The notes under the pieces: model-generated | Databases searched by the model: none | Told to the model about the DNA's origin: nothing | What the model saw: the letters and a program-made list of their open reading frames with translations, nothing else | Assembly (NCBI RefSeq): GCF_014836985.1 | Contig: NZ_JACSPU010000002.1 | Coordinates: forward strand, 1-64,000 | Reading direction: 5' to 3' | Origin: Planococcus wigleyi | Lineage (GTDB): Bacteria; Bacillota; Bacilli; Bacillales_A; Planococcaceae | DNA length: 64,000 bases | Made by a program: the position numbers and the translations under genes | Shown here: positions 802 through 46,742 of the stretch, piece by piece | How positions within the stretch are numbered: position 1 is the stretch's first letter | Layout of the letters: the number at the start of each line of letters is the position of its first letter

Positions 802-3384
802 TTATTCTTCGTCTTCTTCTGGAGTTTCTTCTATATCATCAATCTTCTCATCAGCTACAACGTCTTCGTCTTGGAAAACATCTGCTTCAGCACTTTCTTC
901 AATCAAAGTTTTCTCAACATCTTCATCGATGTCTTCCAGATCGTCAGGCATTTCAATATCTTTCTTCACTTTAGCTACAGTTGCCACAATTTCATCTTCA
1001 CCCAATCGGATCAACCGAACGCCTTGTGTGCTTCTGCCCGTCGTTGAAATATCGTTGACATCCATACGGATCAAAATGCCATTGACGGTAATCAGCATAA
1101 TATCTTCTGTTCCATTCACCGTCCGTACCGCAACAAGAGGTCCGTTTTTGTCGGTGATTTGGCAAGTCTTGATTCCCATACCGCCTCGGGATTGAACGCG
1201 GTACTCGGATTCTTTCGTCTGTTTGCCGTATCCTTTTTCCGTGATGACCAATACATTGTCGTTTGGATCCAAAATCTCCATGCCGACCACTGCATCTCCT
1301 TCACGAAGACGGATGCCCCGAACGCCACTGGCAGTTCGGCCCATGCTGCGGATATCGGTTTCAGGGAATCGGATCAAGGCACCGTCTCTCGTACCGATGA
1401 CCATTTCCTTATTGCCGTCTGTCAGCTTCACTGAAATCAGTTCGTCTTCTTCACGAAGGCTGATGGCAATCAAACCGTTTTGGCGAATGTTGGCATAATT
1501 CGTCACAGGCGTCCGTTTGCTGACTCCTTCACGCGTCGTAAAGAAGAAGAATGCATCTTCTTTGAATTCGTTGACACGAATAACAGCTGTGACTTTCTCT
1601 TCCTTGCCGATTTCCAACAAGTTGACCAATGGCAAGCCTTTGGCAGTACGGCCGTATTCAGGAATCTGATAGCCTTTTTTACGGTATACTTTCCCTTTGT
1701 TGGTGAAGAACAGGATCGTATCGTGAGTAGACGTGTACAGCAAATGTTCGACGAAATCATCTTCGTTCGTACCCATTCCCTGTACGCCGCGCCCTCCACG
1801 TTTCTGGCTGCGGTAAGTATTGGCTGGAAGACGTTTGATATAGCCATTATGCGTCAGCGTCAATACAGATGCTTCCACTGGAATCAAATCTTCGTCTTCA
1901 AACATTTCCGCTCCGCCGGTTGTGATTTCAGTTCTCCGTTTGTCGCTGAAACGTTCTTTTATTTCAAGCATTTCTTCCTGGATGATCTCAAGAATGCGGT
2001 ATTCATTCGCTAAAATCTCTTTAAGGTCGTCAATCAATTTGACAAGAGCTTGATATTCTTCTTCAATTTTGTCTCTTTCCAATCCAGTCAAACGCTGTAG
2101 GCGCATATCTAAAATGGCTTGAGATTGGCGTTCAGTCAAGTTGAAGTCGGACATCAGCCCATTGCGTGCCTGCTCAGCAGTCTGTGATCCACGAATCAAG
2201 GCGATGATTGCATCAATGTGATCCAATGCAATACGCAGTCCTTCAAGGATATGTGCGCGGTCTTCCGCTTTCGTCAATTCAAATTGCGTCCGGCGGCGAA
2301 TCACTACTTTTTGATGTTCCAGGTAGTGGAACAGAATTTCTTTTAGGCCAAGAACTTTTGGATGGCCGTCTACAAGCGCCAGCATATTAATACCGAAGCT
2401 TGTCTGCATTGCGGTTTGTTTGTACAAGTTATTCAATAACACACTCGCACTCGCATCTCTGCGCACTTCAATAACGATGCGCATGCCGTTGCGGTCAGAC
2501 TCATCCCGAAGATCGGTGATGCCATCAATCCGCTTGTCACGCACAAGCTCGGCAATTTTTTCGATCAACCGGGCTTTATTCACCTGGAAAGGAATTTCGT
2601 TGACGATGATGACTTCCTTGCCGTTGGCTTTTGTTTCAATATCGACTACTGAACGGATCAGGATGGAACCTTTGCCCGTTTCGTAAGCACGGCGAATGCC
2701 GCTGCGGCCAAGGATGATGCCGCCAGTCGGGAAATCAGGTCCTGGAATGAATTCCATCAGCTCTTCCGTAGTAATTGCCGGGTTTTCAGCCAATGCTAAA
2801 ACAGCATCAATGGTTTCACCCAAATGATGAGGAGGAATATTGGTAGCCATACCAACTGCAATGCCTGAAGTTCCGTTGACCAATAGATTCGGAAAACGGC
2901 TCGGCAAAACAACCGGCTCTTTTTCTTGTCCATCGTAGTTGTCTCTGTAATCAATTGTGTTTTTATTCAAATCACGGAGCAATTCCATGGAAATTTTCGA
3001 CATTTTGGATTCCGTGTAACGCATCGCAGCTGCGGAATCGCCATCAACCGACCCGAAGTTACCGTGTCCATCTACCAGCATATAACGGTAGCTGAAATCC
3101 TGTGCCATGCGGACCATTGTTTCATAAACAGCTGTGTCACCGTGGGGATGGTATTTACCAATAACATCTCCGACAATACGCGCTGATTTTTTATAGCCTT
3201 TGTCTGAAGTGATCCCTAAATCGTACATTGCATAAAGAATGCGGCGATGGACAGGTTTCAGTCCATCACGCACATCCGGTAAAGCACGGGAAACGATAAC
3301 GCTCATTGCGTAATCCAAAAATGAAGTCCGCATTTCCGTACTTATATTTATTTCTTCAACACCACTGCTAGGCCGTTCAGCCAT
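802..3384 (-). CDS. gyrA: DNA gyrase subunit A
   Basis: Breakage-reunion subunit of DNA gyrase (A2B2), which introduces negative supercoils in the cytoplasm. The 860-residue product is somewhat longer than B. subtilis GyrA because of a very acidic C-terminal tail rich in Asp and Glu. The N-terminal winged-helix/tower domain holds the quinolone-determining segment around residues 68-90 and the catalytic Tyr123 in AAAMRYTE. The C-terminal beta-pinwheel begins after the GyrA box [11 protein letters not shown]. Position 84, usually Ser in Bacillus and the classic fluoroquinolone site, is Thr here. It follows gyrB by 30 bp in the same orientation, so the two are probably co-transcribed, and it ends in an intrinsic terminator. 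Confidence 0.98.
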
Positions 3385-44384: not shown

Positions 44385-44425
44385 TAAAAAAGAAGCGCCA
44401 GGATCATACTCTTGGCGCTTCTTCA
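44385..44425 (-). terminator. Terminator of the fdhA-glcG transcript
   Basis: GAAGCGCCAG (44391-44400) pairs with TTGGCGCTTC (44411-44420). On the minus strand it is followed by TTTTTT. It can work in both directions. Confidence 0.88.
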
Positions 44426-44446: not shown

Positions 44447-44857
44447 TTAATGCTTATTGAATACATTAGCGCCGGCTTCTGCAACTTGCACATCATGCGG
44501 CACGCTGCTCCCGCTGACGCCTATGGCTCCCATTACTTTGCCATTCAAGATAAGAGGGATTCCCCCGCCAAAAACGACAAGGCGTCCGTTATTGGTTGTA
44601 TTTAATCCGTAAAGTTCAGCTGCAGGAACCGTTGCATCAGCTAGGTTCGATGTAGGCATTTTCAAGGCTACGGATGTCCAAGCTTTGTTTTGGGAAATAT
44701 CGATACTCGCCAACCACGCATCATCCATCCGGTGAATGGCCATTAGGTTGCCGCCATCATCCACAACGGAAATAACCATGGCAACGCCAATTTTAGTTGC
44801 TTCTTCTTCAGCGCCAGCAATAATTTCTTTTACCAGTTCTAAAGTGATTTTTTCCAA
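44447..44857 (-). CDS. GlcG/HbpS family protein
   Basis: 136-aa protein of the GlcG/HbpS (DUF336) family. Members bind heme (HbpS) or accompany glycolate and diol use (GlcG, PduO C-domain), and the role here is not known. The core is DDGGNLMAIHRMDDAWLASIDISQNKAWTSVAL, then FGGGIPLILNGKVMGAIGVSG. The start codon is TTG at 44857 with AGGAGG 9 bases upstream. It lies 45 bp downstream of fdhA on the same strand and shares its terminator, so a part in aldehyde metabolism is likely. Confidence 0.88.
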   Translation of the reverse strand: MEKITLELVKEIIAGAEEEATKIGVAMVISVVDDGGNLMAIHRMDDAWLASIDISQNKAWTSVALKMPTSNLADATVPAAELYGLNTTNNGRLVVFGGGIPLILNGKVMGAIGVSGSSVPHDVQVAEAGANVFNKH

Positions 44858-44902
44858 AGGAATTAACCTCCTTGTTTTTCCATAAGCAGATAAGAAAGCA
44901 AT

Positions 44903-46120
44903 TTACTTATTGAAATGTCCATGGGGATCAATGACAAACTTCTTGGAAGCTCCTTGGTCAAATTCAGCATATGCCTCTGGTGATTGATCTAATGTAATGA
45001 TCGTTGCGTTTACCGCTTTGGCAATTTGTGCTTTTCCGCTTAAAATCGACATCATCAAGTCACGATGGTATCTCATGACCGGAGTTTGGCCTGTTACAAA
45101 AGTATGTGCTTTTGCCCAACCAAGCCCTAAGCGTACCTTCAGTGTTCCGATTTTTGCATCTTCATCGACCGCGCCTGGATCGCCGGTTACATAGAGCCCC
45201 GGTATCCCAAGACGTCCGCCTGCACGAGTGACTTCCATAATGGAGTTTAATACGATAGCTGGAGCTTCACCTGCACCTTCTCCATGTCCGCTGGCTTCAA
45301 AACCAACACAGTCAATGGCACAATCAACCTCTGGGACACCCAGGATTTGAGCGATTTGTTCGCCGAGATCTGAATGTTCCCGAAGATTTACAGTTTCACA
45401 GCCGAAACTATGGGCCTGTGCAAGGCGCTCCTTGTTTAAATCACCTACGATAACGACAGAGGCACCCAGCAGTTGGGCTGAATGGGCAGCAGCTAAACCG
45501 ACAGGGCCAGCTCCAGCGACATAAACCGTAGATCCTGGTTTTACACCTGCACTCACAGCGCCGTGATAGCCTGTCGGGAAGATATCGGAGAGCATCGTTA
45601 AATCAAGGATTTTTTCCATGGCTTGATCTTTATCCGGAAATTTCAGCAACTGGAAATCTGCATAAGGGACCATGACGTATTCCGATTGGCCGCCGACCCA
45701 TCCACCCATGTCGACATAACCATAAGCAGACCCAGGACGATCCGGGTTTACGTTCTCGCAAATATGTGTGTCTTGCTCTTTACAGCTGCGGCAGCGGCCA
45801 CAAGCGATATTAAACGGGACAGATACCAGGTCGCCTTTTTTTATGAATTCAACATCACGGCCGACTTCAATGACTTCACCTGTAATTTCATGGCCAAGGA
45901 CAAGCCCTTCAGGAGCGGTCGTCCGGCCACGCACCATGTGTTGGTCACTACCGCAAATATTCGTAGTCACAACTTTTACTACCACTCCATGTTCGCATTT
46001 GCGCCCTACATTCAACGGATTTACCCCGGGACCGTCTCTGATGATTAATTCAGGGTAGCTAATATCTTCAACCGCTACAGTTCCAGCACCTCTGTATACA
46101 ACCGCTCTGTTTCCTGCCAT
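44903..46120 (-). CDS. fdhA: Glutathione-independent formaldehyde dehydrogenase
   Basis: Zinc-dependent NAD dehydrogenase that oxidises formaldehyde to formate without added thiol, like the Pseudomonas putida enzyme. The product is 405 aa from the ATG at 46120. GGAG lies 9 bases upstream and touches the alternative ATG at 46129. Catalytic zinc ligands Cys56 (NICGSDQHM) and His77 (GHEITGE) and the structural zinc Cys107, 110, 113 and 121 are all present. The Rossmann motif is VAGAGPVGLAAAH. The long N-terminal insertion GPGVNPLNVGRKCEHG is specific to this group and encloses NAD. It is divergent from an HxlR-type regulator. Confidence 0.94.
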   Translation of the reverse strand: MAGNRAVVYRGAGTVAVEDISYPELIIRDGPGVNPLNVGRKCEHGVVVKVVTTNICGSDQHMVRGRTTAPEGLVLGHEITGEVIEVGRDVEFIKKGDLVSVPFNIACGRCRSCKEQDTHICENVNPDRPGSAYGYVDMGGWVGGQSEYVMVPYADFQLLKFPDKDQAMEKILDLTMLSDIFPTGYHGAVSAGVKPGSTVYVAGAGPVGLAAAHSAQLLGASVVIVGDLNKERLAQAHSFGCETVNLREHSDLGEQIAQILGVPEVDCAIDCVGFEASGHGEGAGEAPAIVLNSIMEVTRAGGRLGIPGLYVTGDPGAVDEDAKIGTLKVRLGLGWAKAHTFVTGQTPVMRYHRDLMMSILSGKAQIAKAVNATIITLDQSPEAYAEFDQGASKKFVIDPHGHFNK

Positions 46121-46336
46121 TTCTGTCATCTCCTATCTAATTTTTTACATATAGAGATTCACTCTTTACACCGGGGCAGCATCATAGAAGGGGAAAACTT
46201 TAAGAATTAATATTAAATATTCTCTATCTTCGATTTATTCTAAATTATAATTCTTTTTAATGGAAGAACGCACTTTTTTGTGAGAAGGTTACCTAAAGGA
46301 TACTTTCAGGAAGAAATGGAAGAAAGGGGCAGTCTG
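46121..46336. promoter_or_regulatory. fdhA-hxlR divergent control region
   Basis: This AT-rich spacer must hold both promoters. TATAAT stands at 46246-46251 (plus) without a good -35. An imperfect dyad AGAATTAATATTA/AATATTCT lies at 46203-46223. It could be the operator of the HxlR-type regulator, but this is inference. Confidence 0.4.
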
Positions 46337-46708
46337 ATGGAAGATTTGCGGTCAGAAATAAAAAGGGAAATTGAGAGCGGTGAATTTAATTGCGAAAAAG
46401 AACTGACCTTATCGATTATCAGCGGTAAATGGAAAATCATCATTATTTACTATTTGGGAACAGAGGGTGTGTTGCGCTTTAGTGAAATTACACGATTGCT
46501 TCCCAAAATTTCACACAAGGTACTGACTACTCAAATTAGAGAATTAGAGGAAGATGGGATTGTCCATCGGAAAGTCTTTGCTGAGGTTCCGTCTAAGGTA
46601 GAATATTCGTTAACGGCTTTGGGAGAAAGCCTCATTCCAATCGTTTTAATGATGGATGAGTGGGGGAAGAAAAACATCAAACACTTTCCTGTTGCAAAAA
46701 ATGTGTGA
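46337..46708 (+). CDS. hxlR: HxlR-type formaldehyde-responsive regulator
   Basis: Winged-helix transcription factor of the HxlR (DUF24) family, 123 aa from ATG 46337 with AAGGGG upstream. A longer frame from a GTG at 46280 has no such site. [25 protein letters not shown] closely matches B. subtilis HxlR, whose Cys11 and Lys13 are cross-linked by formaldehyde. Here they are Cys19 and Lys21. [28 protein letters not shown] is the recognition helix region, and [16 protein letters not shown] the wing. Divergent from fdhA, so most likely its activator in response to formaldehyde. Confidence 0.88.
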
Positions 46709-46742
46709 GGATTCCTTCGTGGGGAATCCTTTTTCGTTTTTC
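46708..46742 (+). terminator. Terminator after hxlR
   Basis: AGGATTCC (46708-46715) pairs with GGAATCCT (46723-46730), followed by TTTTCGTTTTT. The stem starts on the last base of the hxlR stop codon. Confidence 0.9.

Follow-up and report, generated by a model that had tools for sequence, protein, structure and literature searches.

Here we describe HxlR2, an HxlR-type regulator encoded back to back with a formaldehyde dehydrogenase gene, which probably activates transcription of the fdhA-hbpS operon in response to formaldehyde and is a paralogue of Bacillus subtilis HxlR. We read its signal as formaldehyde because HxlR2 carries a Cys-Lys pair, because of the enzyme encoded next to it and because the two genes are linked across genomes. 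In the mechanism that we envision, formaldehyde would bridge Cys19 and Lys21 on helix 1 of HxlR2 via a methylene group, by analogy with HxlR. Bridged HxlR2 would bind both halves of a 44-bp operator that directly precedes the fdhA core promoter. This promoter lacks a good -35, and HxlR2 would recruit RNA polymerase to it to drive fdhA-hbpS transcription. FdhA would then oxidize formaldehyde to formate with NAD, as YycR of B. subtilis and the enzymes of Pseudomonas suggest, and HbpS would be made from the same transcript. The sequences themselves show the genes, the motif, the operator with its spacing and the co-occurrence, whereas we infer the inducer, the sign of control and the binding.

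No regulator other than HxlR is known to us in which formaldehyde joins a Cys and a Lys of one helix. HxlR2 combines this pair with a different target and altered transmission residues, and so lets one ask in a natural variant what the bridge requires. In Bacillota it is also a candidate for the regulator of thiol-independent formaldehyde dehydrogenase, and it could serve as a part for formaldehyde biosensors, and the operator matrix described below makes the regulon searchable.

The fdhA-hbpS locus and its divergent regulator

The locus lies in a 64-kb window (the whole stretch of DNA that was analysed) of a 3.75-Mb genome, whose completeness is 100% by the tool's figure. Here fdhA and hbpS occupy the minus strand and the HxlR-family gene diverges from them on the plus strand, as the initial annotation had described; family profiles and gene arrangement agree on this. 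The fdhA gene, for a thiol-independent formaldehyde dehydrogenase, spans 44903..46129 (minus strand), and for FdhA the second ATG (46120) is the most likely start because of its better Shine-Dalgarno spacing and its fit to the MSGNR of 4jlw. The hbpS/glcG-like gene follows after a gap of 45 bp (44447..44857, minus strand; PF03928, 137 bits) and has a TTG start behind AGGAGG. After hbpS comes a terminator-like hairpin with a T-run (44386..44424, minus strand; MFE -21.9 kcal/mol, z -3.83), which would close the fdhA-hbpS transcript. This hairpin is absent from the list of our terminator scan, whose loop limit is 8 and which found 3 terminator-like sites against 2.6 expected in shuffles; a terminator-like hairpin after HxlR2 (46707..46731, plus strand) comes from that scan.

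The regulator gene itself (46337..46708, plus strand) would encode 123 amino acids from ATG 46337, the most likely start. This ATG is preferred because the other candidate that we considered and rejected, GTG 46280, sits inside the conserved operator at 46262-46305. The protein is an HxlR/DUF24-family member well over the curated PF01638 cut-off (113.4 vs 20.8 bits). Its nearest named matches come from Planomicrobium and Planococcus, and among solved structures it matches B. subtilis HxlR best (7bzd/7bzg; E 6.7e-37 for 7bzd). In the alignment with these structures the segment FNCEKELTL is identical, so that the annotators' observation that the window regulator keeps the cross-link segment is confirmed, and Cys19-Glu20-Lys21 of HxlR2 correspond to Cys11-Glu12-Lys13 of HxlR, with the Cys-x-Lys pair intact. 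As described in PMC7835342, HxlR is a positive regulator activated by formaldehyde: the compound links Cys11 to Lys13, helix 1 is broken and DNA binding rises; the C11A and K13A proteins give no response to formaldehyde.

To see how the pair fares among relatives, we can turn to a single alignment of the fdhA group, with 35 proteins, 27 of them distinct (identical ones may be one species from two collections). Both Cys and Lys are kept in 27/27 distinct proteins. The published allosteric residues of HxlR, Met26, Lys34-Glu96 and Tyr99, are not kept in the window HxlR2, which has Ile, Thr/Leu and Asp at these positions. In the group, position 26 is Ile in all 27 distinct proteins, position 34 is Thr in 23, position 96 is Leu in 23 and position 99 is Tyr in 17, where the window protein has Asp. 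This divergence would also suit a regulator that senses some other electrophile or oxidant (methylglyoxal, quinone, hypochlorite) via Cys19 alone, like other DUF24 proteins. In fact, other sensors of electrophiles or oxidants in the MarR/DUF24 family have Cys11 too (PMC7835342), and the operator class of fdhA is shared with a paralogue that lacks Cys-x-Lys. We nonetheless consider such a signal unlikely, since Lys is kept together with Cys throughout the fdhA group when NCEKE occurs in only 6 of 56 proteins of the sample described below, and since FdhA lies far above the formaldehyde-dehydrogenase cut-off. Formaldehyde thus remains our preferred inducer.

A natural variant of the sensing pair was seen at L081:4968-5357, where an HxlR2-like protein in which Glu takes the place of Lys (NCHEE) adjoins a general-type aldehyde dehydrogenase and has an operator of 31.1 bits; it is one case, on a long branch.

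The enzyme passes the equivalog cut-off of TIGR02819, glutathione-independent formaldehyde dehydrogenase (759.9 vs 636.95 bits), aligns with 1kol and 4jlw, and has the formaldehyde dehydrogenase 1kol as its best solved match. A TIGR02819 match over the cut-off was also found in the B. subtilis control genome. The FdhA family takes in B. subtilis YycR, which according to PMC11577753 is a thiol-independent formaldehyde dehydrogenase that was detected by similarity to the Pseudomonas putida enzyme; it uses NAD, and formaldehyde was the only active substrate among those tested. The window enzyme resembles YycR and P. putida FdhA in that TIGR02819 is matched over cut-off and 1kol is its top solved match, and differs in that its gene adjoins HxlR2 and hbpS. 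The available portion of PMC11577753 names HxlR and AdhR for other systems and names no regulator for YycR. The source genome also encodes a formate dehydrogenase alpha subunit (800.2 bits).

Across the family, 29 fdhA loci were found in 27/250 genomes (E up to 1e-120). Upstream of fdhA, 19 of these loci have a divergent HxlR2, which carries NCEKE in 19/19, a motif that was not selected for because the loci were retrieved through fdhA. At the remaining 10 loci there is no HxlR2 within 1.5 kb; thus the enzyme also occurs without the regulator. Within the same distance of fdhA, hbpS is found at 15/29 loci, 13/19 with HxlR2 and 2/10 without, and is missing at 6 of the 19 HxlR2 loci. In a motif-independent sample from 21 genomes, the window's included, NCEKE occurs in 6/56 HxlR-family proteins, four of which adjoin fdhA and two of which lie in hxlAB clusters (the flanks inspected were 1.5 kb for most and larger for the two hxlAB cases). 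The conserved linkage of fdhA and HxlR2 is more than chance. A further set of 80 HxlR loci comprises 15 with fdhA (12 of them also with hbpS), 37 with hxlA and others with DJ-1/PfpI-like or other genes; this set was retrieved partly by an FNCEKE-containing pattern, so that the motif proves nothing there and was not counted.

A bipartite operator in front of fdhA

Between the divergent genes, a block of sequence is nearly constant in the 19 fdhA/HxlR2 intergenic regions, from four genera, while the flanks vary. Here lies a putative bipartite 44-bp HxlR-type operator (46262..46305, minus strand), which reads towards fdhA with an AGTATCC-N4-GGTAAC half and a AAAGTGCGTTCTT half that starts 28 bp on. 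In hxlA promoters from many genera the halves are AGTATAC and AAAGTGCGTACTT; most of the 37 examined have them at a spacing of 28 bp. The fdhA-type operators differ from the hxlA type in letters that they conserve among themselves (GGTAACCTTCTCACAA, GTTCTT).

A matrix for such sites was built from 13 non-redundant hxlA sites, with no Planococcus or Planomicrobium ones among them. Of the 37 promoters, 11 were dropped beforehand: L066 (no site), L094, L097, L101, L113, L114 and L128 (other spacing or first half) and, as near kin, L100, L105, L110 and the genome's own site; 13 of the remaining 26 were then dropped as redundant. This hxlA-trained matrix gives one hit in the 64-kb window, the site at 46262-46305 with 35.1 bits; the next best scores -4.2, and 100 first-order simulated 64-kb sequences reach at most 5.9 bits. 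The other 18 fdhA loci with HxlR2 score from 28.8 to 42.0, which with the window makes 19/19, and none of the 10 fdhA loci without HxlR2 reaches 8 bits (5e-8 for this co-occurrence, on a count that ignores kinship). Among L050-L129, 14/15 fdhA promoters score at least 25 and the remaining one 14.5.

The promoter geometry follows that of hxlA. A putative -10 hexamer of fdhA, TAGAAT (46237..46242, minus strand), lies 34 bp from where the second operator half begins, the offset seen in hxlA promoters. The site therefore conforms to the HxlR-type class as the hxlA promoters define it here, with halves 28 bp apart and a -10 at 34 bp. A -10-like hexamer (5 or 6 of 6 letters) stands at 34 bp in 23/32 hxlA promoters with a site above 25 bits and in 22/26 distinct fdhA-type promoters, one of which (L055) precedes hbpS. 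A simple promoter scan listed no sigma-70-like site at the fdhA promoter. A second -10-like hexamer occurs at offset 27 in 14/26 fdhA-type promoters, and this alternative -10 would place the operator over the -35, as would suit a formaldehyde-responsive repressor of fdhA that is released instead of activated; the MarR/DUF24 family is indeed described as repressors in PMC4776306. We find it very hard to favour repression, however, because the operator-to-promoter geometry is the same as at hxlA, whose HxlR regulates positively. Activation by HxlR2 is thus the sign of control that we would expect.

The second gene of the operon probably shares this control. Among the 14 hbpS genes of the 80-locus set, an operator site within 500 bp upstream is found only at L055, where fdhA is absent. 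Because this is the only hbpS with an upstream site of its own, the fdhA promoter probably serves hbpS as well, which would make hbpS a genuine target of the regulation. At L055 itself, in Oceanobacillus luteolus, HxlR2, the operator and hbpS are kept, with no fdhA between them.

HxlR2 beside the hxlAB system

The initial annotation suggested that the output of HxlR appeared rewired here, from the RuMP enzymes to oxidation by FdhA, and named as an argument against its own proposal an hxlAB operon under another HxlR elsewhere, with the window regulator responding to something different. Our genome search found hxlA (289.4 bits, cut-off 200) and hxlB (257.1 bits, cut-off 160) 223 kb from the window locus on the same contig, together with an HxlR of their own, HxlR1, which also carries FNCEKELTL. 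As far as position tells, then, hxlAB is under another HxlR. Both genes share one strand with HxlR1, a Cof-type HAD hydrolase and an arylformamidase-like gene, and zwf diverges from hxlA. We therefore rejected the idea that the window gene is the genome's sole HxlR with a moved output. What survives of the proposal is that an HxlR-type regulator with an intact pair stands over a formaldehyde module, a view that the shared operator and the hxlA-like promoter geometry support; the rewiring is better described as a second, paralogous branch.

HxlR2 is 52.7% identical to HxlR1 and 54.5% identical to B. subtilis HxlR. In a tree of 86 rows and 118 columns (the frame-broken L115 left out), whose bootstrap had not settled and in which long branches were flagged, the fdhA-linked and DJ-1-linked HxlRs fall in one main clade (support 98/96), and the other (97/87) unites HxlR1 with B. 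subtilis HxlR, without HxlR2. By both tests of HxlR orthology HxlR2 is not the orthologue: it does not group with the B. subtilis protein and does not adjoin hxlAB. Because HxlR1 sits at hxlAB and the tree places B. subtilis HxlR with it, HxlR2 is a paralogue, and most likely a second formaldehyde sensor and branch beside the classic HxlR system.

An hxlA match (E up to 1e-40) was found in 9/19 HxlR2-fdhA genomes and none in the other 10; therefore, the oxidative branch exists there without RuMP. The same count bears on the arrangement in which the fdhA operator is read mainly by HxlR1, both branches forming one regulon with HxlR2 as a minor partner. One operator class with one spacing does occur at fdhA, hxlA and zwf in one genome, but the letters peculiar to fdhA-type operators and the ten genomes in which no hxlA was found leave this arrangement with little chance, and we keep to HxlR2 as the regulator of fdhA.

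Compared with known systems, HxlR2 is closest in kind to B. subtilis HxlR, the DUF24 regulator of hxlAB, with which it shares the identity given above, FNCEKELTL, the bipartite operator type and the -10 spacing. It differs in its main clade, its target fdhA-hbpS, its longer N-terminus and its residues at 26, 34, 96 and, in the window, 99; the nearer relative of HxlR in the source genome is HxlR1 at hxlAB. The AdhR-AdhA-YraA system of B. subtilis likewise has a formaldehyde-inducible aldehyde dehydrogenase with its own regulator, whereas AdhR is MerR-type and the enzyme bacillithiol-dependent (as given in PMC11577753). FrmR-FrmAB is also a formaldehyde-responsive regulator of formaldehyde detoxification, but, as PMC4776306 describes it, FrmR belongs to the CsoR/RcnR family and the FrmAB pathway is glutathione-dependent. 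Among the papers searched, none has both 'HxlR' and 'fdhA' and none both 'BRH1' and 'HxlR'.

Other loci with the operator class

A IUPAC pattern was drawn after the fdhA, hxlA and zwf sites had been seen, so that their perfect matches arise by construction; no fourth perfect match was found in the genome. With up to one mismatch there are 4 genome matches, one of them with a single mismatch, against 0 of the reversed control; with up to two there are 16 against 18, no excess. The single-mismatch site belongs to a DUF24 paralogue of the same genome that has CPV in place of Cys-x-Lys, and scores 32.7 bits. Because this paralogue carries the same class, the operator class is wider than formaldehyde, and we did not use the operator as proof of a formaldehyde response. 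It would indicate that a DUF24 protein acts at the site, the neighbouring HxlR2 being the first candidate. At least three non-NCEKE loci of the 56-locus sample score 17.8-29.0 bits, a lower bound because the upstream stretch is misplaced in some rows, L003 included.

The CPV regulator (L133:1134-1484, minus strand) diverges from a luciferase-like monooxygenase (1645-2718, plus strand), near 261 kb of C10 in the own genome, and sites very like its operator also occur in relatives.

Another HxlR-type operator lies before zwf (L021:8956-8999, plus strand; C14:270955-270998 in the own genome) and scores 28.3 bits; zwf matches TIGR00871 with 492 bits. At related loci that combine a strong zwf match with upstream DNA, zwf is preceded by an operator of 31 bits or more in 7/8 cases. 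In the source genome the probable regulator of hxlAB and zwf is HxlR1, and glucose-6-phosphate dehydrogenase may, together with a dissimilatory RuMP cycle, answer to HxlR.

Cys-x-Lys HxlRs also adjoin DJ-1/PfpI-family genes (L065, L067-L070, L072-L074, L076, L078, L124), with family identity shown for L073, L078 and L124. Eight DJ-1 loci score 8.2 to 21.6 bits (L066-L070, L074, L076, L078), no site above 8 was found at L072, L073 and L124, and the L065 site is located elsewhere; a DJ-1-query scan with its own start calls gave an upstream site in 1/8 cases (L066). The DJ-1 branch is thus a lead only. We give roughly even odds to a broader reading, in which the Cys-Glu-Lys HxlRs are a clade around a single formaldehyde-cross-link sensor and Bacillota have repeatedly changed what it controls: RuMP fixation through hxlAB and zwf, oxidation through fdhA-hbpS, or damage repair of the DJ-1/PfpI type. 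Each output would have its own version of the one bipartite operator, and the window gene would then represent the oxidative branch.

In Paenibacillus timonensis (L066:3049-5369), an HxlR of the fdhA/DJ-1 clade diverges from a DJ-1-like gene, hxlA and hxlB, with a 20.2-bit site between them, and a second hxlA in the same species has a site of 43.7 bits. Counting against our reading, FNCEKE HxlRs of uncultured genomes (L080, L116) lie next to ABC-transporter genes, of the sugar type as shown for L116.
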